DNA of 32,913 nt from Burkholderiales bacterium (lineage in GTDB: Bacteria > Pseudomonadota > Gammaproteobacteria > Burkholderiales > Burkholderiaceae_C), in contig JANXWR010000309.1 of assembly GCA_025351025.1 (NCBI GenBank), positions 1 to 32,913 on the forward strand, read 5' to 3'. The notes beneath the pieces were generated by a model, which saw nothing but the letters and a program-made list of their open reading frames with translations, was not told the origin of the DNA and ran no database searches. Both the position numbers and the translations under genes were made by a program. Of the stretch, positions 9,866 through 32,913 are shown one piece after another (within the stretch, counting starts at the first letter, position 1; the number at the start of each line of letters is the position of its first letter).

Positions 9866-10138
9866 TCACTTGCCCTTCTTCTGCTTGTCGAACTTGCGCC
9901 AGTAGGCGAACTCGTCTTCGTGGAACTCGATGTCGAGCTCCATGACGCGCGCCTGCAGCCGCTCCTGCAGGTCGGCCACCGCCTTGTTGTAGACGAGCGG
10001 CCCGATCTCCTCGAGAAAAAAGCCGAGCAGCGCCGCCGCGGCGACGTTGCCGATGCGCTCTTCCATGTTCTCGTGGAAGTAGCGCTCGATCGAGGCCATC
10101 GCCTCCTTGCGCGCCTCTTTGGAAATCTCGATCGTCAT
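9866..10138 (-). CDS. DUF2164 family protein
   Basis: 90 aa from the ATG at 10138 (MTIEISKEARKEAM). The track's 144-aa version adds upstream sequence overlapping the glycosylase gene. The pattern IxxYFxENxEExIGNxxAxxLLxFFLEEIGPLVYNxAVxD is that of DUF2164, a small mostly helical cytoplasmic family without known function to me. A GGAG-containing purine stretch lies about 6-10 bases upstream of the chosen start. It follows the DNA glycosylase gene by 37 bases in the same direction and may share its transcript. It ends in a lysine-rich tail (KFDKQKKGK). Confidence 0.88.
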   Translation of the reverse strand: MTIEISKEARKEAMASIERYFHENMEERIGNVAAAALLGFFLEEIGPLVYNKAVADLQERLQARVMELDIEFHEDEFAYWRKFDKQKKGK

Positions 10139-10175
10139 CGTCTGCTCCGCTCGAAGTCTGGCGAAATTGTGCGGC

Positions 10176-10742
10176 TCAGCCGGCCCGCATCGGCTTGCTG
10201 AGAAACGCCGAGCCGGCGAGCACGAAGCGCCAAGGCAGATCCTGCGACTTGCTGATGCCGATGCGTGCGCCGCTGGCCACCTTGAACATCGCGTCAACAC
10301 CCTGCGGGACCAGGCGAAACGGCGGCCGGTCGAAGCGCAGGCCGTTCATCGCATGCATCACGCCGAGCGCCTGGCAAAGCCGGCCCGGCCCCGAGCAGAG
10401 CAGCCGCAGCTCCTGCTGGCCGCGCCGCTCGCGCATGGCGGCGACGCCTCGCGTCGGCTCGATGGCGCGGATCAGTACACCGGCACCGTGACCGGCGCGC
10501 ATGCAGACGACGTTCAGGCACCAGTGCAGGCCGTACGAGCGGTAGACGTAGGCGCGGCCCGACGGGCCGAACATCACGGCGTTGCGCGGCGTCTGGCCGC
10601 CGAAGGTGTGCGAGGCCGGCTCGCTCTCGTCGTAGGCCTCGGTCTCGACGATGCGGCCGCCGACGCCCGACACGAACAGGCTCGTGCCGATGAGCGCGCG
10701 TGCGACCTCGATCGAAGTCGCATCGAAGTCGATGGTCGTCAT
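10176..10742 (-). CDS. mpg: 3-methyladenine DNA glycosylase (AAG/MPG family)
   Basis: 188 aa. Removes alkylated and deaminated purines (3-methyladenine, hypoxanthine and others) from DNA as the first step of base excision repair; cytoplasmic. The family signature is clear: RIVETEAYDESEPASHTFGGQTPRNAVMFG near residues 29-58 contains the catalytic Glu that activates water, and AYVYRSYGLHWCLNVVC contains the base-flipping Tyr segment. SGPGRLCQALGV is the conserved DNA-contact region. Length is typical for bacterial members (about 180-210). The ATG at 10742 is divergent from psd with about 60 bases between. It belongs to a set of repair-linked genes in this window (also Ku and a UvrA paralogue), although they are not contiguous. 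Confidence 0.94.
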   Translation of the reverse strand: MTTIDFDATSIEVARALIGTSLFVSGVGGRIVETEAYDESEPASHTFGGQTPRNAVMFGPSGRAYVYRSYGLHWCLNVVCMRAGHGAGVLIRAIEPTRGVAAMRERRGQQELRLLCSGPGRLCQALGVMHAMNGLRFDRPPFRLVPQGVDAMFKVASGARIGISKSQDLPWRFVLAGSAFLSKPMRAG

Positions 10743-10792
10743 CGCGGAAGGATAGCCAGCCGCCCTGCCTCGATAGAATTCGCGCCTTCTGC

Positions 10793-10796
10793 GAGG
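10793..10796 (+). promoter_or_regulatory. Shine-Dalgarno supporting the TTG start of psd
   Basis: GAGG lies nine bases upstream of the TTG at 10806. No in-frame ATG exists between here and the conserved LPQYLLPKRGLT segment, so this site decides the start. Confidence 0.5.
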
Positions 10797-10805
10797 TGCG
10801 CTCCG

Positions 10806-11663
10806 TTGCTCTCCGATCGCCGCAAGGTCCTACCGCAATACCTGTTGCCCAAGCGCGGCCTGACCGCCTTTGCCGGCCGCGTCGCATCGCGCGAGCGCGG
10901 CGCGACCACGACGCGCCTCGTGCGCTGGTTCGTGCGCAAGTACGGCGTCGACATGAGCGAGGCGGCCAACCCCGACGTCGCTTCCTACGCCAGCTTCAAC
11001 GACTTCTTCACGCGCGCCCTCAAGCCCGGTGCGCGCCCGCTCGCCGGCGCCGACCTGGTCTGTCCGGTCGACGGCACGATCAGCCAGTTCGGCGCGATCG
11101 AGAAAGACCAGATCCTGCAGGCCAAAGGCCATCGCTATTCGACGACGGCGCTGGTCGGCGGCGACCGGGCGCTGGCCGAACGCTTTCAGGACGGCAGCTT
11201 CGCCACGCTCTACCTGAGCCCGAAGGACTATCACCGCATCCACATGCCCTGCGACGGCGTGCTGACGCGCATGATCGACGTGCCCGGCGCCTTCTTCTCG
11301 GTCAATCCGACGACGGCGCGCGGCGTGCCGGGCCTGTTCGCGCGCAACGAGCGCGTCGTCTGCGTGTTCGAGTCGAAGGCGGTCGGCAGCTTCGTGCTCG
11401 TGCTCGTCGGCGCGACCATCGTCGGCAGCATGGCCACGGTGTGGCACGGCATCGTTAATACGCCGCGAGTGCGCCGCGTGCGCGAATGGAACTACAGCGA
11501 CGGCAAGGTCGCCTTGCGAACGGGCGAGGAAATGGGCCGCTTCATGCTCGGCTCGACCGTCGTGCTGTTGTTCGGCGAGAGTGCCGGGCTTGCCTTCAAT
11601 CCGGCCTGGCAGCCGGGGCGGGCGATCCGGCTCGGCGAGGCGATGGCCACGAAGCGCGGTTGA
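10806..11663 (+). CDS. psd: Phosphatidylserine decarboxylase proenzyme
   Basis: 285 aa from a TTG start at 10806 (MLSDRRKVLPQYLLPKRGLT), which aligns with the usual N-terminus of bacterial Psd. The 518-aa track ORF includes about 230 residues of antisense glycosylase shadow. Psd converts phosphatidylserine to phosphatidylethanolamine at the inner membrane. Catalytic-triad segments are visible: Asp in VCPVDGTISQFG, His in YHRIHMPCDG, and the autocleavage site LGST, where Ser250 becomes the pyruvoyl group and leaves a 36-residue alpha chain. SYASFNDFFTRALKPGARP is a family hallmark. The length matches the E. coli type (about 280-320). The next gene begins two bases after its stop, so the two are probably co-translated. 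Confidence 0.95.
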   Translation: MLSDRRKVLPQYLLPKRGLTAFAGRVASRERGATTTRLVRWFVRKYGVDMSEAANPDVASYASFNDFFTRALKPGARPLAGADLVCPVDGTISQFGAIEKDQILQAKGHRYSTTALVGGDRALAERFQDGSFATLYLSPKDYHRIHMPCDGVLTRMIDVPGAFFSVNPTTARGVPGLFARNERVVCVFESKAVGSFVLVLVGATIVGSMATVWHGIVNTPRVRRVREWNYSDGKVALRTGEEMGRFMLGSTVVLLFGESAGLAFNPAWQPGRAIRLGEAMATKRG

Positions 11664-11665
11664 AG

Positions 11666-12589
11666 ATGCGTGCGGTCTTCGTCGACGCCAACCCGACCCT
11701 GCGCTCGCTTGCGGAGCGGATCGGCGCGGCGTCGATGCCGGCGCTCGAGCTTTCCTATGGCTCGGCCGACATCGCACCGGACAAGCTGCCCGAAGCGCTC
11801 GCGGACGCCGCGATCGCCGTCATCGACCACACCGCCTTGCCGATCGATATCGCGCGCCGTTGCACCGGCTTGCGGCACGTCGTCTTCCTCGGCACCGGTG
11901 CACGCAGCTACATGGATCCGGAAGCGCTGGCCGAGCTCGGCATTGCGGTTCACATCATCAAGGGCTACGGCGACACGGCCGTCGCTGAATGTGCGATCGG
12001 CCTGCTCTTCGCCGCGGCGCGCGGCTTCGCGGTGATGGACCGCGGCATGCGCGACGGCCGGTGGCTGCGCACGGAAGGAATGCAGCTCACCGGCAAGACG
12101 CTCGGCCTGATCGGCTTCGGCGGCATCGGCGCCGAAGTGGCGCGCCTCGCCCTCGGCATCGGCATGAAGGCCCTGGCCTGGAACCGCACGCCGAAGTCGC
12201 ACGGCGGCGTCGAGTTCGTGTCGATCGAGCGACTGCTCGCCGAAAGCGACGCGGTCTCCCTGCACCTGCTGCTCGACGACGAGACGCGCGGCCTGCTCTC
12301 ACGCGAGCGCATCGCCGCGATGCGGCCCGGCGCGATCCTCGTCAACACCGCGCGGGGCGCGCTCGTCGACGAGGCAGCGATGGTCGAAGCCTTGCGCTCA
12401 GGCCGGCTCGGCCATGCGGCGCTCGATGTGTTCGACGTCGAGCCGCTGCCCGCCGGCCACGTGCTCGCGACCTTGCCCAACGTCACGCTGTCAGCGCACT
12501 CCGGATTCCGCACGCCCGAGGCGAACGAGCGGCTGATCGAGGCCGCCTTCGCACATTGCCGGCGGATCCTGGCCGGAACCGACGTCTAG
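11666..12589 (+). CDS. D-2-hydroxyacid dehydrogenase (NAD-binding, phosphoglycerate dehydrogenase-like)
   Basis: 307 aa from the ATG at 11666, two bases after the psd stop; the longer track ORF is psd shadow. The family reduces 2-keto acids to D-2-hydroxyacids (or the reverse) with NAD(P)H. The dinucleotide fold GLIGFGGIGAEVARLALGIGM (GFGGIG at residues 150-155) is followed by the catalytic Arg230 (NTARGALVDE), Glu259 (DVFDVEPLP) and His278 (SAHSGFRTPEA), so the active site is complete. It lacks a C-terminal ACT domain, and at 307 aa it is shorter than SerA, so it is not a standard serine-pathway enzyme. The substrate is unknown; glyoxylate/hydroxypyruvate reductase-like activity is possible. 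Its stop codon overlaps that of the convergent outer-membrane gene within a CTAG palindrome. Confidence 0.9.
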   Translation: MRAVFVDANPTLRSLAERIGAASMPALELSYGSADIAPDKLPEALADAAIAVIDHTALPIDIARRCTGLRHVVFLGTGARSYMDPEALAELGIAVHIIKGYGDTAVAECAIGLLFAAARGFAVMDRGMRDGRWLRTEGMQLTGKTLGLIGFGGIGAEVARLALGIGMKALAWNRTPKSHGGVEFVSIERLLAESDAVSLHLLLDDETRGLLSRERIAAMRPGAILVNTARGALVDEAAMVEALRSGRLGHAALDVFDVEPLPAGHVLATLPNVTLSAHSGFRTPEANERLIEAAFAHCRRILAGTDV

Positions 12590-13329
12590 AACTCGTACTT
12601 CACCCGCATCGTGAACATGTTGCCGCGCTGCGCATAGGTCTTGCCTGCCAGGTAGGCGGCCTGCCACTGAACGGTGCCCGGACCCGCGGGAATGGACCCG
12701 AACAGCGCCGGCCCGGCCCGATGCGATTGCGCCTCGTGCGGCAGCCAGTGGTCCCAGGGTCCGACCTCGCCGAAGCCTTGCGCACCGACGTGCAGCCAGC
12801 GCCTCCACCGGTAGCGCAGCTGCCACTGGTAGCTCAGCTCGGTCGGTTGCGCCGACAGCGCGCCGAAGCCGCGCTCGAAGAAGACGTTGAGGTTGAGCTG
12901 AGTGCGGCCGACGTCGGTCTGCAGGGCCGGGCCGAAGTCCAGGGCGTAGCCCGAGGCCGGATGCTGCGGCCGGATCAGCTGGGTGTGGATCCCCAGGTCG
13001 AACGGATACTGGCCCTGCGTGAGCAGGACATCGTTCTGCCAGTTCAAGGTGTCCAGGTGGGTCGCGAACTTCGACGCACCGACGTAGCTCGCGAGGAGCT
13101 CGGTGTACCAGCGACCGTTGACGTTCCAGCCGAGGCCGACTTCGGGCCAGGCGACTTCGGAAGAGCCGCGTGGCTTGACCGTCCAGTAGCGGAAGTCGAC
13201 CGTCTTCACGCCCGGGTCGTCGTAGACGGTGACGACGTAGTAGCCCGGCTCGGCGTGGACCGTGCCGCAGCAGAGCGCCGCGAGCGCGACGAGCCTGCGC
13301 ATGACGATGGCGGCGCGCAGCTTCAACAT
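12586..13329 (-). CDS. Predicted outer-membrane beta-barrel protein of the cupredoxin/c-di-GMP operon
   Basis: 247 aa from the ATG at 13329, which overlaps the stop of the GGDEF-EAL gene as TGATG; the track start at 13452 is less likely. The first 25 or so residues form a signal peptide (RRLVALAALCCGTVHA, cut before EPGYY). The mature part alternates aromatic, polar and small residues (WPEVGLGWNVNGRWYTELLASYVG, YQWQLRYRWRRWLHVGAQGFGEVG) and ends in MRVKYEF, with the terminal Phe typical of outer-membrane barrels. I do not recognise a named domain. As the last gene of the three-gene unit it may act as the outer-membrane partner of the cupredoxin or the sensor. Both the signal and the barrel are inferred from sequence pattern only. 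Confidence 0.8.
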   Translation of the reverse strand: MLKLRAAIVMRRLVALAALCCGTVHAEPGYYVVTVYDDPGVKTVDFRYWTVKPRGSSEVAWPEVGLGWNVNGRWYTELLASYVGASKFATHLDTLNWQNDVLLTQGQYPFDLGIHTQLIRPQHPASGYALDFGPALQTDVGRTQLNLNVFFERGFGALSAQPTELSYQWQLRYRWRRWLHVGAQGFGEVGPWDHWLPHEAQSHRAGPALFGSIPAGPGTVQWQAAYLAGKTYAQRGNMFTMRVKYEF

Positions 13330-15743
13330 CAATGCAGCACCGCGACGTCGGCGCCTGGCGGACGCCGGCCCGCCGACCAGGTGGCCGACCATTGCAGGAA
13401 CTCGCTTACCGGCATCGGGCGGCCCATGTGGAAGCCCTGCGCCTGGTCGCAATGCAGCTCGCGCAGCATGTTCCAGACCTGCAGGTTCTCCACGCCCTCG
13501 GCGACGACGACGATGCCCAGGTTGTGCGCCAGGTCGATGGTCGAGCGGACGATCATCGCGTCGTCGGCATCGGTCTGCATGTGGCGCACGAAGGATTGGT
13601 CGATCTTCAGCTCATCGACTGGCAGTCGCTTCAGGTAGGCGAGCGACGAATAGCCGGTGCCGAAGTCGTCGATCGAGAGCTTGAAGCCGATCGCGCTGAG
13701 CCGGTCGAGCGTGACCAGGGCGCGCTGCGGATCGTCCATCATCGCGCTCTCGGTGATCTCGAGGCAGAAGGCCCGCGCCGGCGCGCGGCGGCGCGCCAGC
13801 ACGGCCTCGAATTTCTGCGGCAGCTCGGGGTCGAGCAGGTCGCGCGTCGAAAGGTTCACCGACAGCACCAGCTCGATGCCTTCTTCGGCGAGCGTGCGCG
13901 AGTGGCAGGCGGCGGCGTCGAAGACCCACATCGTCAGCGCACGAATGAAGCCGGTCTGCTCGGCGAACGGAATGAACTCGGCCGGCGGCACCAGGCCGCG
14001 CCGCGGATGCAGCCAGCGCACCAGCGCCTCGGCGCCGACGACCTGACCGGTCTCGAGCGCGAGCTTGGGCTGGAGGTACAGGCACAGCTCATCGCGCTCG
14101 ACGGCCTGTCGCAGCTCGCTGATCAGGGTCAGCGTCTGCGCGCTGGCGACGTCGACCGAAGGGTCGTACATCAGCGGGCCGGTGCCGCGGCTCTTGGCTG
14201 CGTACATGGCGACCTCGGCGCGATTGAGAAGGGCATCGCCGTCATCGGCATGCTCGGGCCAGCAGGCGATGCCGATGCCGGCGCCCATGTCGACGTGGTG
14301 CTCTTCGAGCATCAGCGGCGCCTGGAACGACTGCTCGATCCGCCTGGCCACCGAGAGCGCGAGCTCGGCGTCGCCGGCGCGCAGCAGCACGCCGAACTCG
14401 TCGCCGCTCAGCCGGGCGACGAGGTCGCCTTCGCGCACCAGCTGCCGGCTCAGGCGCTCGGCCACCTGGACCAGCAGCAGGTCGCCGATGCGGTAGCCGA
14501 GCACGTCGTTGACGTGCTTGAAGCGGTTCAGGTCGAGCATGAGGATGGCCACCGAGCCGTTCGATGGCGCCTGGGCGATCGCCTCGTTCACCGCTTCGCG
14601 GAAGCGGGCGCGGTTGGGCAAGCCGGTCAGGCTGTCCCAGTAGGCGAGCTTCAGGACCTGCGCCTGGTTCTCGGCGATGTTGATGCGCATCCGCTCGAAC
14701 GACTGCGACAGCTCGCCGATCTCGTCGTGGCGCTGCATGCCGCGCATCGGCGTCGCGTAGTCGCCGCGGCCGAGCCGCTCGGCGGCGTCGGCGAGTCCAC
14801 GCAGCGGCGTCGTCACGCGGCGCGCCGTGAACACGCTGCCGAGCGCGAACACGGCGATGCCCATCAGCGTGATGCCGATCAGGGCCAGCTGCAGGTCGCG
14901 CGGCAGCCGCACCGCGTCGTCGACCGAGAGCGTGAGCAAGGCGCGCACGCCGGCGCCGGCGTCGGCTTCGCGGCCCAGGCTCAGCGTCTTCACGCGCACG
15001 CCCAGCTCGTCGCCCTGCGTCGTCACCGAGCGCATCGCGGCGTCTTCGCTGCCGTCCGGCCAAGGCTGGCGCGCCAGCCCTGTGGCGCTGGCGCCGTCGA
15101 GCGTCGTCAGATTGACGGTCCACGGCTCGCTTGCCGAAGCGCGCGCGATCAGCGTCAGGTCCAGCGCCGACAGCCGCTGCATGTCGCTGGCGAGCTGTCC
15201 GTCGATCGGAAAGTCCATCAGCACCCAGCCGACGACGAGCGGCGCCCGGATCGGCACGAGCACCGCCTGGTAGGGCCGCCCCGCGCGCAACGTGATGACG
15301 CTGGCCTGGCCCGACGCCGCCGATTGCGCCGACAGCCGCTCGGCCAGCGGCAGCAGGTCACGCGCCTCGCTCGCCGTAGAGGCGCGCAGCTTGAAGTCGG
15401 TGGCCAGCAGCGCGACTTCGGTGGCGCCGATCCGCGCGCCATGGTTGGCGAGCACCGAGACGATGGTTTCGCTGTCGTTGGAGCTCACCGCCTCGCGAAA
15501 TCCGTAGTCGGCGGCGAGCAGACGGGCGCCGTTGATCAGCGTCTGGGCGCGCCGATCGAGCAGGTTCTGCAGCAGCCGTTCGCCGGCCTGCAGCTTGGCC
15601 GGCAGAACCCGATGCGCGTGCTCCGACAGGCTCGCCCGCAAGGCGACGAAGCTGGCCAGCTGCACCGCCAGCAGCAGGCCGAGAAAGAGCAGGATGATGC
15701 GGCCGCCGATCGAGCGCTGCCACCAATGGCCGCGCCCGCTCAT
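13329..15743 (-). CDS. Membrane-bound periplasmic sensor-HAMP-GGDEF-EAL protein (c-di-GMP turnover)
   Basis: 804 aa. TM helix at about 16-36, then an approximately 250-residue periplasmic sensor (CACHE-like by architecture, not by clear motif), TM helix at about 286-306, HAMP at about 304-357, GGDEF domain at about 365-525 and EAL domain at about 540-790. The cyclase motif is SGDEF (446-450) instead of GGDEF, while the RxxD inhibitory site (REGD, 437-440) is kept. The phosphodiesterase motifs look complete: EALVR (572-576), VNLS, EITES, DDFGTGYSSL, LKID and AEGVE. The protein may therefore mainly degrade c-di-GMP, or do both. The start overlaps the cupredoxin stop (ATGA), and the stop overlaps the start of the barrel gene (TGATG), giving strong translational coupling. 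The signal sensed is unknown; the neighbour suggests copper or redox state. Confidence 0.95.
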   Translation of the reverse strand: MSGRGHWWQRSIGGRIILLFLGLLLAVQLASFVALRASLSEHAHRVLPAKLQAGERLLQNLLDRRAQTLINGARLLAADYGFREAVSSNDSETIVSVLANHGARIGATEVALLATDFKLRASTASEARDLLPLAERLSAQSAASGQASVITLRAGRPYQAVLVPIRAPLVVGWVLMDFPIDGQLASDMQRLSALDLTLIARASASEPWTVNLTTLDGASATGLARQPWPDGSEDAAMRSVTTQGDELGVRVKTLSLGREADAGAGVRALLTLSVDDAVRLPRDLQLALIGITLMGIAVFALGSVFTARRVTTPLRGLADAAERLGRGDYATPMRGMQRHDEIGELSQSFERMRINIAENQAQVLKLAYWDSLTGLPNRARFREAVNEAIAQAPSNGSVAILMLDLNRFKHVNDVLGYRIGDLLLVQVAERLSRQLVREGDLVARLSGDEFGVLLRAGDAELALSVARRIEQSFQAPLMLEEHHVDMGAGIGIACWPEHADDGDALLNRAEVAMYAAKSRGTGPLMYDPSVDVASAQTLTLISELRQAVERDELCLYLQPKLALETGQVVGAEALVRWLHPRRGLVPPAEFIPFAEQTGFIRALTMWVFDAAACHSRTLAEEGIELVLSVNLSTRDLLDPELPQKFEAVLARRRAPARAFCLEITESAMMDDPQRALVTLDRLSAIGFKLSIDDFGTGYSSLAYLKRLPVDELKIDQSFVRHMQTDADDAMIVRSTIDLAHNLGIVVVAEGVENLQVWNMLRELHCDQAQGFHMGRPMPVSEFLQWSATWSAGRRPPGADVAVLH

Positions 15744-16405
15744 TTCGGCCGCCCGACCGTGCCGAGCGAGCTGCGTTGCTCGATGTCGGCGTTGCCGACG
15801 ACCAGCGGCGTCGAGGTCGGTGGTGCGTCCTCCGCCAGCGACGAGTGCCAGACGCGCAGCCGGTAGCTGCCCGGCGCCACGCCGTCGATCTGCGCCCGAC
15901 CCGAGGCCGCGCTGCGGGCGTGCAGCGGCGTATCGACGACGACCACCCAGGCCACCATCTGGTCGTGGATGTTGCAGCCCAGGACGGCGATGCCGGGCTT
16001 GTCGAACACCACCGGCTGCGCCGGCACGCCGGCATAGAGCTTGAGCTCGAAGGTCTTGACCGGCGAGAACGAATAGACGTGGTGCCGGACCGTGTCGTTG
16101 TTGGGGAACGTGACCGGCGTGCCGACGGTCACGACGCTGATCTGCGGCGTGAACTGGCGATGCACCTGCGCAATCTGCACGCCGCTCATCGGGCTGACCG
16201 GCAGCCGCCCTGCAGCCGGCTCCAGCATAACGACGGCGTCGACGAGCGGCCGGTTATCCGCGTCGGTGACGACAACGCTCACCGTCGCCGCGTGGGTGCT
16301 CTGGGTGACGGCGGCGAGGGCGAGGCAGACGAGAAGAAGGGAGACGGGGCGGAGCACGGCGGACGGCGTCGAAGGCGGGTGGCAGAAACGGCCAGGGATC
16401 GGCAA
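15740..16405 (-). CDS. Exported cupredoxin (amicyanin/plastocyanin-like, 'methylamine utilization protein' type)
   Basis: 221 aa from the ATG at 16405; a GTG at 16357 (VLRPVSLLLVCLALAAVTQSTHA) would give a tighter signal peptide and 205 aa. After the signal the protein has a carboxypeptidase-regulatory-like start (VVVTDADNRPLVDAVVML) and then a cupredoxin core: TFPNNDTVRHHVYSF holds the first His ligand (His108 or 109), and GCNIHDQM supplies Cys144, His147 and Met150. C-x2-H-x2-M is the short ligand loop known from amicyanin, so a type 1 blue copper site is likely. Such proteins carry electrons or bind copper in the periplasm. No methylamine dehydrogenase genes are present. The gene opens a three-gene unit with overlapping stops and starts, so its product probably feeds the sensor domain of the next protein; that link is inference. 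Confidence 0.85.
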   Translation of the reverse strand: MPIPGRFCHPPSTPSAVLRPVSLLLVCLALAAVTQSTHAATVSVVVTDADNRPLVDAVVMLEPAAGRLPVSPMSGVQIAQVHRQFTPQISVVTVGTPVTFPNNDTVRHHVYSFSPVKTFELKLYAGVPAQPVVFDKPGIAVLGCNIHDQMVAWVVVVDTPLHARSAASGRAQIDGVAPGSYRLRVWHSSLAEDAPPTSTPLVVGNADIEQRSSLGTVGRPK

Positions 16406-25753: not shown

Positions 25754-26455
25754 TCAGCCGGGGATCAGCCGATAGCCGACCCCGGTCTCGGTGACCAGCA
25801 TCTTCGGCTGTGCCGGGTCGTCCTCGAGCTTGTGGCGCAGGTTGCCCATGAAGACGCGCAGGTAGTGGTTGTGCTCGATGTGCGAAGGCCCCCAGACCTC
25901 GCGCAGCAGATGGCGGTGCGTCAGCACGCGGCCGGCGTTGGCGACGAGCACGCCGAGCAGCCGGTACTCGATCGGCGTGAGATGGACCGCGACGCCGCCC
26001 TTTTTGACGATGCGTGCGGCGCGATCAATTTCGACGTCGCCCAAGGTCACCGTCGATGCCGCGTCGCCGCCGCGCGCGCCCTGCTGCCGGCGCATGTGCG
26101 CCCGCACGCGTGCCAGCAGCTCCGACACGCCGAAGGGCTTTTCGATGTAGTCGTCGGCACCGGCGTCGAGGGCGCGCACCTTGTCGTGCTCGTCGGAGCG
26201 GGCCGAGAGCACGATCACCGGCACCTGCGACCAGCCGCGCAGCTCGCGGATCAGCTCGGTGCCGTCGCCGTCGGGCAGGCCGAGGTCGGCGATGACCAGG
26301 TCGGGCCGGCGCGTCGCCGCATCGACCAGGCCTTGCTTCGCGGTCTCGGCCTCGAACACGCGCCAGCCTTCGGCCTCGAGCGAAGTGCGGACGAAGCGAC
26401 GGATGTGCGGGTCGTCTTCGACCAGCAGGACGACGAGCGCGGTCTCGGCCATCAT
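25754..26455 (-). CDS. kdpE: Two-component response regulator KdpE
   Basis: 233 aa, OmpR/PhoB-type regulator that activates kdpFABC under K+ limitation. The receiver domain spans residues 1-120: acidic pair VEDDPHIRRF, phosphoacceptor Asp in VIADLGLPDGDG, Thr/Ser position VIVLSARSDEHD and Lys in DDYIEKPFGVSELLARV. The winged-helix DNA-binding domain begins near residue 135 (LTPIEYRLLGVLVANAGRVLTHRHLLREVWG, then HYLRVFMGNLRHKLE and TETGVGYRL). The start is ATG at 26455 (MMAETALVV) or 26452; either overlaps the kdpD stop within ATGATG, so translation is coupled to kdpD. The 605-aa track ORF is a frame shadow fused to the true gene. Position and domains make the name secure. Confidence 0.95.
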   Translation of the reverse strand: MMAETALVVLLVEDDPHIRRFVRTSLEAEGWRVFEAETAKQGLVDAATRRPDLVIADLGLPDGDGTELIRELRGWSQVPVIVLSARSDEHDKVRALDAGADDYIEKPFGVSELLARVRAHMRRQQGARGGDAASTVTLGDVEIDRAARIVKKGGVAVHLTPIEYRLLGVLVANAGRVLTHRHLLREVWGPSHIEHNHYLRVFMGNLRHKLEDDPAQPKMLVTETGVGYRLIPG

Positions 26456-29187
26456 GCGGCTGCGGCCGGCGCCGCTGCTTCGGTGACCTCGCCCGGCGCA
26501 TCGGCGGCGCCGTCGAACGCAGGCGGCCTGCCCAGCGGCAGGCTGAAGCTGAACGCGGCGCCGCCCTCGGCCCGGTTGGCGACGCTGATCGTGCCGCCGT
26601 GCGCCGCGACGATGGCCTTGCAGATCGCCAGGCCGAGGCCGACGCCGGAGACCGCCGATTCGCGCGCGCCGCGCGTGACCTTCTCGAAGATCGCCTTCTC
26701 CTGGCCGACGCGCACGCCCGGCCCGTCGTCGGCGACCACGACATGCATCAGCGCCTCGTCGGCGTGCGCCGAGATGCGCACCGTGGCAATGGGCGGCGTG
26801 TACTTGGCGGCGTTCTCGAGCAGGTTGACGAGCACGCGCTCGATCAGCACGGCATCGCACTCGACCAGAGGCAGGCCGGCGGCCAACGCCGTCTCGACGC
26901 GGCGCGGCACGAGTACGCGCGCCGCCGCACGTACCGCGCTGCCGACGATCTCTTCGATCGAATGCCAGTCGCGGCGCAGCCGCACCTCGCCGCTCTCGAT
27001 GCGCGCCATGTCGAGCAGGTTGTTGACCTGCGTGCTCATGCGCAGCGCCTCGGCGCGCATCGCCTGCGCGATCTCCGACTGCTCGGCGCTGAGCGCCGGC
27101 CGCGTCAGGCCCAGGCTCTCGGCCAGGCCGACCAGCCCGGCAAGCGGCGTGCGCAGGTCGTGCGAAAGCGCGGCGAGCAGCGAGTTGCGCAGGCGCTCCG
27201 ATTCGATCTGCACCGTCGCGCCGCGCGCCACGTCGACGTAGTGGACGCGCTCGAGCGCGATCGCCGTCAGTGCGGCGAAGGTCTCGAGCTGGCGGCGCTG
27301 CTCGGGCACGAGCAGCAGCCGCGGCTCCTCGGGCTTGAGGGCGAGCACGCCGCGCGTTCGCATCGGTGCCCTCAGCGGCAGGTAGAGCCAGGCGCTGCCT
27401 GGCAAGGTGTCGGTGCCCAGCCCGGCCGTCCGCGCATGGTCGAAGGCCCAGCGCGCCGTGCCGGCGTCGAGGCCGGCGCCTTCGGACCGGGGCGCGATCG
27501 AGACCAGGCGGTCGTCGGCGTCGAGCACGAAGATGTGAGCGCTGGCACGGAACTCGCGCGCCACCGCCCACTCGGCCGCCTCGACCACCTGCTCGACCGC
27601 GAGCACGCTCGACAGGTCGCGCGCCACTTCGAACAGCGAATGCGAGCGCCGCTCACGATGCGTCGCGATGCGCGCCTGGTAGCGCAGGCCGGCGGTGAGC
27701 TGGCCGACGATCAGGCCGACGGCCAGCATGACGCCGAAGGTCAGCAGGTACTGGACGTCGGAGACGCTGAACGAGAGCTTGGGCGGCACGAAGAAATAGT
27801 CGAAGGCGGCGACGTTGAGGAGCGAAGCGAGCGCCGCCGGGCCGCGCCCCCAGCGCAGCGCGACGCCGAGCACCGCCAGCAGGAACAGCATGACGATGTT
27901 CGGCAGGTCGAGCACCGCCTCGAGCGGCAGCGCCGCCGCGGTAAGGACGGCGCAGGCCGCCGCCGCGACGAGGTAGCCGGCCGGCCGGAAGCCGGTACCG
28001 GTCGCTTCCGAATCGCGCGACGGCCGGGAAGGCACGCGGCCCGGCCGGGAAGGCGCGCCGATCTCGATCAGGTCGACGTCGGGCGCCAGGCGGCCGAGCT
28101 GCTGCGCCAGCGTGCCCGCCGGCCGCCAGACGCTCGCCTGGTTGTGGCCCATGACGATCTTCGAGAGGTTGTGCTGGCGCGCGTGGCCGACCACTGCCGT
28201 GGCGACGCCCGCGCTCGGCAGCACCGCCGTCGTCGCGCCCATCTCTTCGGCGAGCTTCAAGGCGCGCAGGATCCGCTCACGTTTCTCGTTAGGCAGCCGC
28301 TGCAGGGCCGGCGTCTCGACGTAGACGGCGTGCCACGACACGGCGAGCTGCTGGGCCAGCAGGGCAGCGCTGCGCACGATGTGCTCGGCGCCGTCACGGG
28401 GGCCGACGCAGCACAGCACCGCGCTCTCGGTCTTCCAGACGCAGCCGATCGCGCGCTCGACGCGCCAGGCCTGGACGTCGTCCTCGACGCGATCGGCGGT
28501 GCGGCGCAGCGCCAGCTCGCGCAGCGCCATCAGGTTGCCCTTGCGAAAGAAGTTGGCCGCGGCGCGCTCGGCCTGGGTCTCGCCGTAGACCTTGCCGGCC
28601 TTCAGCCGCGCGATCAATTCGTCGGCCGGCGTGTCGACGAGCACGACCTCGTCGGCGCGGTCGAAGAATGTGTCCGGCAGGGTCTCGTGGACGCGGATGC
28701 CGGTGATGCCGCCGACGACGTCGTTCAGGCTCTCGAGATGCTGGACGTTGAGCGTGGTCCAGACATCGATGCCCGCGGCGATCAGCTCCTCGACGTCTTG
28801 CCAGCGCTTCGGATGGCGCGAGCCGGCAACGTTGGAATGGGCCAGCTCGTCGACGAGGATGAGGCCGGGCCGGCGCGCCAGCGCGGCGTCGAGGTCGAAC
28901 TCGGCGAGCGCCGCCGCCTTGCCGTCGCCCACCCGCGTCTTGCGCGGCAACACGTCGAGGCCCTGCAGTTGTGCGATCGTCTCGGCCCGGCCATGCGTCT
29001 CGACCACGCCGGCCATCACGTCGACGCCCGCGGCCCGAGCCGCGCCCGCCGCGACCAGCATGGCGTAGGTCTTGCCGACGCCGGCCGACGAGCCGAAGTA
29101 GATGCGCAGCTTGCCGCGCGAGGCCCGGGCCTCGTCCTCGCGGAGGCGCTCGATCAGCGCGTCGGGGTCGGGGCGCGAGTCGTGCAT
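26452..29187 (-). CDS. kdpD: Osmosensitive K+ channel sensor histidine kinase KdpD
   Basis: 911 aa from the ATG at 29187. The KdpD N-terminal domain has Walker A FGSSAGVGKTYAML (about 31-44) and DELAHSN plus the family block DVWTTLNVQHLESLNDVVGGITG. A Usp-like domain follows (about 250-370; SKIVMGHNQASVWR). Four TM helices lie near 405-500, then a GAF-like region (LFEVARDLSSVL, SAHIFVLDADD), HisKA with the phosphoacceptor His in ALSHDLRTPLAGL, and an ATPase domain with N-box LVNLLENAAKYTP, G1 DDGPGVR and G2 GVGLGLAICKAI. It senses low K+ or osmotic change and phosphorylates KdpE. The stop overlaps kdpE. The ATG overlaps the end of the frame-shifted reading of the corA remnant (TGATG). A GTG at 29190 is an alternative start. 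Confidence 0.95.
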   Translation of the reverse strand: MHDSRPDPDALIERLREDEARASRGKLRIYFGSSAGVGKTYAMLVAAGAARAAGVDVMAGVVETHGRAETIAQLQGLDVLPRKTRVGDGKAAALAEFDLDAALARRPGLILVDELAHSNVAGSRHPKRWQDVEELIAAGIDVWTTLNVQHLESLNDVVGGITGIRVHETLPDTFFDRADEVVLVDTPADELIARLKAGKVYGETQAERAAANFFRKGNLMALRELALRRTADRVEDDVQAWRVERAIGCVWKTESAVLCCVGPRDGAEHIVRSAALLAQQLAVSWHAVYVETPALQRLPNEKRERILRALKLAEEMGATTAVLPSAGVATAVVGHARQHNLSKIVMGHNQASVWRPAGTLAQQLGRLAPDVDLIEIGAPSRPGRVPSRPSRDSEATGTGFRPAGYLVAAAACAVLTAAALPLEAVLDLPNIVMLFLLAVLGVALRWGRGPAALASLLNVAAFDYFFVPPKLSFSVSDVQYLLTFGVMLAVGLIVGQLTAGLRYQARIATHRERRSHSLFEVARDLSSVLAVEQVVEAAEWAVAREFRASAHIFVLDADDRLVSIAPRSEGAGLDAGTARWAFDHARTAGLGTDTLPGSAWLYLPLRAPMRTRGVLALKPEEPRLLLVPEQRRQLETFAALTAIALERVHYVDVARGATVQIESERLRNSLLAALSHDLRTPLAGLVGLAESLGLTRPALSAEQSEIAQAMRAEALRMSTQVNNLLDMARIESGEVRLRRDWHSIEEIVGSAVRAAARVLVPRRVETALAAGLPLVECDAVLIERVLVNLLENAAKYTPPIATVRISAHADEALMHVVVADDGPGVRVGQEKAIFEKVTRGARESAVSGVGLGLAICKAIVAAHGGTISVANRAEGGAAFSFSLPLGRPPAFDGAADAPGEVTEAAAPAAAA

Positions 29188-29203
29188 CACGCGAAAGCCG
29201 GTT

Positions 29204-29618
29204 TCAAAGCCACTTGGCGCGACGGAACATCCACCACATGAACACACACGCGACCGCGATGATGCCGAGCGCGGCCGGATAGCCCCAGGGCAGCTTCAGC
29301 TCGGGCATGTTCTGGAAGTTCATGCCCCAGATGCCGGCGAAGGCAGTCGCCACCGCGAAGATGCCGGCCCAGGCCGCCAGCGAAGAGCGTGTCGTCGTAC
29401 TCCTCGATCTTCGGCCGCTGGTGGCTGTGCCTGGCGTCCTCGATCGCCAGCTCGTGCAGGCCGAACTCCTCCTGCATCTTCGAGAGCTCTTCGGGCGTTG
29501 CGTCCTTCAGCGCCACCCAGACAAAGCAGCCGGGCCTGGTCAGGTAGTCGCTGATCCCGTCGAGCGGGCAATCGGCGAGCTTGGCGCCGTCTTTGTAGGC
29601 CACGCAGTTGATGAGCAT
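29204..29618 (-). pseudogene. corA: Decayed corA-type Mg2+/divalent cation transporter between kdpC and kdpD
   Basis: The ATG at 29618 (MLINCVAYKDGAKLADCPLDG, with GGAAGG upstream) opens a good CorA N-terminus of 79 residues, ending IEEYDDTLF at 29382. The next bases leave that frame: a second frame starting near 29380 reads LAAWAGIFAVATAFAGIWGMNFQNMPELKLPWGYP and ends FRRAKWL at the TGA 29206-29204. That is the CorA C-terminus with both TM helices and the diagnostic GMN motif (58 residues). About 185 of the usual 320 residues, including the pore-lining helix, are gone, and the join changes frame. The 167-aa track ORF is the out-of-frame read-through. It is a pseudogene or, if the join is an assembly error, a normal corA. 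In its own frame, translation ends in TGATG over the kdpD start. Confidence 0.9.
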
Positions 29619-29701
29619 GGTGCGGCGCCTTCCCGGACGGTTGCGACCGGGCGATTCTAGGAGCCGGTCGACGCGCGCCGGCGCCGGCACGGGTCAGGTC
29701 G

Positions 29702-30280
29702 TCACGATCTGGCCGCGGCATCGAGCGCGAGATTGAGCGCCAGCACGTTGACGCGCGGCTCGCCGAGAAAGCCGAGCACCCGCGCCTGCGCGTGCTCGGC
29801 GACGAGGGCGCGCACCCGCTCGGCCGACATGCCGCGAACGCGCGCGACGCGCGCCACCTGGTACTCGGCCGCGGCCAGGCTGATCTCGGGATCGAGACCG
29901 CTCGCCGAGGTGGTGACGAGGTCGACGGGCACGGGCGCCGCATTGCCCAGGTCGGCGGCGCGCAGTGCCTCGACGCGGCCCTTGACCGCGTCGACCAGCG
30001 CAGGGTTGGTGGGGCCCAGGTTCGAACCGCCCGAGTTGGCCGCGTTGTTCGCCATCGGCGACGTCGCCGACGGGCGGCCCCAGAAGTTCTTCGGATCGCT
30101 GAAGCTCTGGCCGATCAGCAGCGAGCCAACGACCTTGCCGTCGCGCTCGACCAGGCTGCCCGCCGCCTGATGCGGAAACACGGCGCGGGCGATGCCGGTG
30201 ATGGCAAACGGGTAGGCGATGCCGGTGAGCAGAGACAGCAGCACGAAGAGGACGAGTGCCGGTCGGACGAGGGTGTTCAT
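29702..30280 (-). CDS. kdpC: Potassium-transporting ATPase subunit KdpC
   Basis: 192 aa. Small membrane-anchored subunit of the KdpFABC K+ pump, required for complex assembly and ATP affinity. It has one N-terminal TM helix ([27 protein letters not shown], about 6-32). The conserved block [23 protein letters not shown] (about 52-74) is followed by [14 protein letters not shown] and [34 protein letters not shown], which are hallmarks of KdpC. Length is typical (about 190-200). It lies 15 bases after the kdpB stop. Downstream, instead of kdpD directly, comes the corA remnant after an 83-base gap. Confidence 0.96.
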
Positions 30281-30295
30281 GGTTGCCTTGGAGGG

Positions 30296-32383
<2,088 letters not shown>

Positions 32384-32388
32384 GGCGC

Positions 32389-32913
32389 TCACTTGCCTGA
32401 AAAGAGCATGAAGTGCTCGACGACGGGGCCCAGGGCGAGCGCCGGCACATAGTTCAGGAGGCCGACCAGGATCACGGTGCCGATCAGCAGCAGCACGAAC
32501 AGCGGCCCGTGCGTCGGCAGCGTTCCCGCCGTCACCGGTAGTCGTTTCTTGGCGGCCAGCGAGCCGGCGACCGCGAGCACCGGGACGATCACCGCGAAGC
32601 GGCCGAACCACATCGCAATCGCCAGCATGACGTTGTAGAAGGTCGTGTTCGCGGACAAGCCTGCGAAGGCGCTGCCGTTGTTGTTGGCCGCCGAACTGAA
32701 GGCGTAGAGGATCTCGGAAAAGCCGTGCGCGCCGGGGTTGGCGATGCCCGCCTTGCCGGCGTCCAGGCCGACCGCGATGGCGGTGCCGGCCAGCACCAGG
32801 ATCGGCGTGACGAGGATCGCCACGGCGACCATCTTCATGTCGTAGCTCTCGATCTTCTTGCCGAGGTACTCGGGCGTGCGGCCGATCATCAGCCCGGCGA
32901 TGAAGACGGTGAG
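32389..32913 (-). CDS. kdpA: Potassium-transporting ATPase subunit KdpA (partial, N-terminus beyond window)
   Basis: The last 174 residues of KdpA, the K+ channel-like subunit; the gene enters from the right edge. The visible part begins [22 protein letters not shown], a family hallmark. It includes a K+ selectivity-loop region ([20 protein letters not shown]) and TM segments ([45 protein letters not shown]). It stops at 32389 and kdpB follows five bases later. About 400 residues of the usual 560-600, and any kdpF, lie outside the window. Confidence 0.95.

Follow-up and report, generated by a model that had tools for sequence, protein, structure and literature searches.

Why should a cupredoxin, carried by hundreds of genomes under a label derived from methylamine utilization, be encoded beside a second-messenger receptor? 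The question was raised by a stretch of DNA of 32,913 nucleotides from a Burkholderiales bacterium (contig JANXWR010000309.1), hereafter the window, in which genes for an exported cupredoxin, a membrane receptor with GGDEF and EAL domains and a signal-peptide protein overlap one another. The first-pass annotation had drawn the three products as one system, in which the periplasmic copper or redox state reported by the cupredoxin sets c-di-GMP levels with the third protein as an outer-membrane partner.

The overlapping genes and their products

All three genes are located on the minus strand, and the overlaps described in the first-pass annotation are present: the cupredoxin gene (15740..16405) and the receptor gene (13329..15743) share the bases ATGA, and the end of the receptor gene overlaps the start of the third gene (12586..13329) via TGATG. 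The third gene is probably co-transcribed with the other two. The start-stop overlap of the cupredoxin and receptor genes is a general feature and not peculiar to the window, as 57 of the 105 same-strand pairs found elsewhere show an in-frame overlap of this type. Genes for a phosphatidylserine decarboxylase and a D-2-hydroxyacid dehydrogenase are located on the plus strand at positions 10107-12589 of the window, and the dehydrogenase gene overlaps the 3' end of the third gene by four bases. Further away, at 26452-32611, are kdp potassium-transport genes, namely those for KdpD, KdpC and a P-type ATPase consistent with KdpB, each on the minus strand.

The cupredoxin, as judged from its open reading frame, Pfam, an AF2 model and an alignment of its ligands, is an exported protein of 221 amino acids when read from a TTG codon; an in-frame GTG at 16357-16355, which yields a cleaner signal peptide, is a probable alternative start. 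Its copper-site region resembles that of amicyanin and is flanked by CarboxypepD_reg-like parts, and Pfam gives a CarboxypepD_reg match barely above the cut-off. A search of NCBIfam gave no model covering the cupredoxin or the third protein. The amicyanin-like loop Cys144-x2-His147-x2-Met150 noted previously is found in the sequence, with His108 as the fourth ligand, and all four residues are invariant in 52 of 52 cupredoxin sequences. The AF2 model (pLDDT 94.3) matches amicyanin best among PDB structures, with pseudoazurin also close. It has the Greek-key beta fold of type 1 blue copper proteins, and its ligands, a pair of His residues together with a Cys and a Met, follow in the order typical of cupredoxins. 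Based on the ligands, we infer that the protein holds copper in a predicted type 1 site.

The receptor (804 amino acids; open reading frame, Pfam and AF2 model) agrees with its first description as a two-TM protein with a periplasmic region, a HAMP domain, an SGDEF motif and an intact EAL domain. Pfam identifies dCache_3 (1.8e-17), HAMP, GGDEF and EAL. Two PAS-like periplasmic modules behind a long N-terminal helix, the hallmark of dCache domains, are indicated by Pfam, by the topology of the AF2 model of the N-terminal part (pLDDT 93.0; a long helix followed by a double-Cache domain) and by PDB matches to McpB, DctB, amino-acid chemoreceptors and LuxQ solved with LuxP, the top entries being integrative models and not crystal structures. 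In the cytoplasmic part, the EAL catalytic motifs (EAL, N, ExTES, DDxGxG, KxD, E) are all intact, as expected for a phosphodiesterase, and the SGDEF sequence, which is accompanied by an RxxD I-site, conforms to the G(G/S)DEF signature of diguanylate cyclases and makes such an activity putative. Across 102 receptors, there is hardly any variation in the EAL, ExTES, DDxGxG and KxD motifs; the GGDEF motif varies more, reading GGDEF in 60, SGDEF in 14 and being degenerate in the others.

Conservation of the cupredoxin-receptor pair

The first-pass annotation had called for a gene-neighbourhood search for the trio, and its outcome was divided: the cupredoxin-receptor pair is widely kept, but the third gene is not. 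We collected all fetched cupredoxin loci and de-duplicated them by sequence, which left 117, a few of them with the receptor cut by contig ends. The receptor is present at 111 of these and no more than 150 bp away at 107. Gene order is reversed at L068 and L233 with adjacency kept, and L063 and L237 are similar cases in which order or strand has changed and proximity is retained. A cupredoxin match is present in 39 genomes of a 200-genome sample from the order, and the receptor adjoins it in the mapped neighbourhoods. The reverse search, in which the first 300 residues of the receptor were compared with the same 200 genomes, placed 27 of 29 strong matches (E <= 1e-25) within 4 kb of a cupredoxin. 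Counting strong matches only, 27 genomes have both proteins, none has the cupredoxin only, one has the receptor only and 171 have neither (Fisher p ~1.7e-32, a statistic that ignores shared descent); the receptor-only exception, G073, contains fragmentary cupredoxin matches.

The distribution extends beyond the order. A scan of GTDB genomes found at least 591 cupredoxin relatives, and the best 80 of these, which were fetched, are mostly from Burkholderiales, with others from Methylophilales and Alishewanella/Rheinheimera and single MAGs labelled Rokuibacteriota and Chthoniobacterales. In a phylum-wide sample, cupredoxins occur in 40 of 299 genomes, other classes included, with the receptor beside most of them. 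The near-obligate partnership of the two genes is thus well supported by their reciprocal conservation, and the pair forms a strong, widespread and apparently undescribed unit across much of Pseudomonadota. In line with the earlier statement that no characterised pathway has this composition, we found neither a curated family nor a paper describing the pair, and a literature search that reached few subscription papers returned nothing on the pair, on a cupredoxin combined with c-di-GMP or on DUF3034/DUF4394 in this setting. Six loci carry a cupredoxin gene without a receptor (L070, L073, L100, L201, L203 and L212), which points to a further function or partner of the family beyond the pair; the genomes with orphan cupredoxin genes G118, G157, G023, G038 and G152 also have a pair.

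The output of the receptor is not constant. At L062, L064, L230 and L233, a class III cyclase domain (Guanylate_cyc) is found behind the same sensor front end. L062 and L064 retain both cyclase motifs, FTDVRNFT and VLGDGVNLA, and genome G152 contains two receptor-cupredoxin pairs, one of which has the cyclase output (L064). Retention of the front end while the output changes would be expected if the cupredoxin and the sensor are a functional input unit.

Other genes recur near the pair. An exported truncated globin together with DUF3034, an exported family with a barrel-like C-terminus that is recurrent beside the pair in other lineages, is found at 25 of 117 loci, DUF4394 at 29 and a SnoaL-like protein at 5. 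Truncated globins beside DUF3034 and the pair are seen at L061 (4675-5175), L064, L194, L204, L207, L211, L227 and others; some have lipoprotein-type signal sequences, as judged by eye, and two Cys residues are common to most of the globins shown. The exported DUF4394 protein is encoded directly upstream of the cupredoxin, often with an overlap, at L153, L159, L161, L166, L171, L175, L201, L203 and L212, including in Alishewanella/Rheinheimera, which have no adjacent receptor.

Co-receptor, electron carrier or copper chaperone

The side-by-side inheritance of the two genes suggests an undescribed route from the periplasmic copper or redox state to a cytoplasmic decision. We lean towards a model, to which we give somewhat better than even chances, in which the cupredoxin acts in the periplasm as a co-receptor and, through its copper or redox state, determines the output of the membrane receptor. 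To this end, the exported cupredoxin would take up one copper ion in its type 1 site and, in one copper-loading or redox state, dock on the receptor's double-Cache domain. The second TM helix and the HAMP domain would relay the change to the cytoplasmic output, which in the window would be the c-di-GMP phosphodiesterase activity of the EAL domain, with the GGDEF domain possibly active or regulatory; the output driven by this front end would in some lineages be a class III nucleotide cyclase. The computed support consists of the near-obligate gene partnership, the conservation of the ligands, the two folds, the output swap and the intact EAL motifs, and from these we infer a direct contact of cupredoxin and receptor, the copper occupancy, the identity of the signal and the sign of the response. 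A mirror-tree comparison lends no specific support to a contact with the sensor, as cupredoxin distances give a higher partial r with the cytoplasmic GGDEF-EAL part, 0.54, than with the sensor domain, 0.28. The wider proposal, that such cupredoxins are sensors rather than electron carriers and form a general module, a copper/redox switch on Cache receptors controlling c-di-GMP hydrolysis or a class III cyclase, is put forward more tentatively. Should the cupredoxin prove to be the input, the receptor family would gain a testable signal, a blue copper protein would be seen to act as a sensor, and the periplasmic copper or redox state would be tied to c-di-GMP and, where the output is swapped, to a different cyclic nucleotide.

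Alternatively, the cupredoxin might be an electron carrier in a periplasmic redox reaction, for instance with the exported truncated globin, and the receptor might sense a small molecule linked to this reaction, the two being co-regulated without touching. The loci with globin and DUF3034, the amicyanin-like fold and the existence of orphan cupredoxin genes are consistent with this, as is the fact that dCache domains are often small-ligand binders, with amino-acid and dicarboxylate sensors among the structural matches. However, globin, DUF3034, DUF4394 and SnoaL-like genes are each found at a minority of loci, in contrast to the near-constant receptor; the cupredoxin neighbourhoods have no redox enzyme in common throughout, and cupredoxin and receptor are reciprocally exclusive. 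We regard a shared redox reaction as the less likely explanation, albeit one that retains real weight.

A different role for copper would follow if the cupredoxin were a chaperone or scavenger supplying a site in the receptor, which would then be the true sensor. Receptors of this kind could sense copper themselves, since the periplasmic CHASE4 domain of a GGDEF-EAL protein of P. aeruginosa PA14 reportedly binds Cu(II) directly (PMC13277305). The periplasmic part of the present receptor, however, has no conserved His/Cys cluster among 52 sequences, its sole candidate metal ligand, His101, being kept in 33 of 52, so that metal sensing is likelier to reside in the cupredoxin. With conserved ligands absent, a direct metal site in the receptor was rejected, and the chaperone reading appears improbable.

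The third protein (247 amino acids with a signal peptide) is a predicted outer-membrane barrel that ends in ...MRVKYEF, with YEF at its C-terminus, and has no Pfam match. Its homologues, present in 28 of 200 genomes sampled from the order, have other neighbours: an FTR1-family gene adjoins in 15 of 18 barrel neighbourhoods examined, a Cupredoxin_1-family gene in 15 and both in 14, and the closer homologues stand alone or with FTR1. A recurrent trio of Cupredoxin_1, FTR1 iron permease and predicted outer-membrane barrel was observed within the order at L082-L098, L249, L250 and L256, and the barrel family looks like an unnamed partner in FTR1-type uptake. Of the 117 loci, 1 carries the barrel. 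Apart from the window, it adjoins the cupredoxin-receptor pair only in a convergent case, L251, where it is encoded on the opposite strand and is 33% identical, and was therefore probably placed independently. The barrel gene is a local addition outside the conserved unit. That the outer-membrane protein takes a functional part in the system as its third member, as first drawn, is very improbable and the trio was rejected as a unit, since the barrel is absent beside all other pairs bar the convergent one and its closest homologue (57% identical, L243) is apart from the pair, despite the start-stop overlap in the window, the neighbour at L251, the barrel-like DUF3034 proteins of other lineages and the second cupredoxin beside its homologues.

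Comparison with known systems

The label under which the cupredoxin is known had been thought misleading for this locus. Public plasmid records do name its homologues 'methylamine utilization protein', and a PF02975 (MauA-family) search of the genome, which is 81% complete, gave no match, with controls equally silent; a constant Mau context was not seen across the clustered cupredoxin neighbourhoods. With amicyanin and pseudoazurin, the window cupredoxin has the fold and the amicyanin-type Cys-x2-His-x2-Met loop in common, but it is only about 20% identical to them and has the additional CarboxypepD_reg-like flanks, and its constant neighbour is the receptor rather than methylamine dehydrogenase.

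By analogy, the best reading of the cupredoxin-receptor pair is that it may be built like LuxP-LuxQ or NspS-MbaA. In Vibrio cholerae, the periplasmic NspS controls MbaA, a membrane-bound c-di-GMP receptor that carries domains for both synthesis and breakdown (PMC8967002). The likeness lies in the combination of a periplasmic protein and a c-di-GMP receptor, which is known here from the gene partnership, but NspS is a polyamine-binding solute-binding protein, whereas the partner in the window is a cupredoxin. We know of no variant of NspS-MbaA with a cyclase output. In LuxP-LuxQ of Vibrio harveyi (PDB 2hj9, 1zhh), a double-Cache-like sensor is bound by a periplasmic protein, and LuxQ matches the receptor model. 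LuxP, however, is a sugar-binding-type partner and the output of LuxQ is a histidine kinase, in contrast to the cupredoxin and the GGDEF-EAL output of the window.

In Pseudomonas, the small, redox-sensitive periplasmic protein YfiR controls the membrane c-di-GMP enzyme YfiN (TpbB). This arrangement is similar to that proposed for the pair, but YfiR is not a cupredoxin and works via disulfides, and YfiN, a cyclase, lacks an EAL domain. For the CHASE4 receptors PA14_37690 / IsmP, which are GGDEF-EAL proteins, a study published in 2026 reports a metal-responsive periplasmic domain, with copper among the metals (PMC13277305). There, copper binds to the receptor itself and no cupredoxin partner is described, whereas the window receptor belongs to dCache_3. 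A periplasmic protein paired with a c-di-GMP receptor is thus a known kind of system, and a cupredoxin in this role, with a swap to a cyclase output, is apparently an undescribed form of it in the literature searched.
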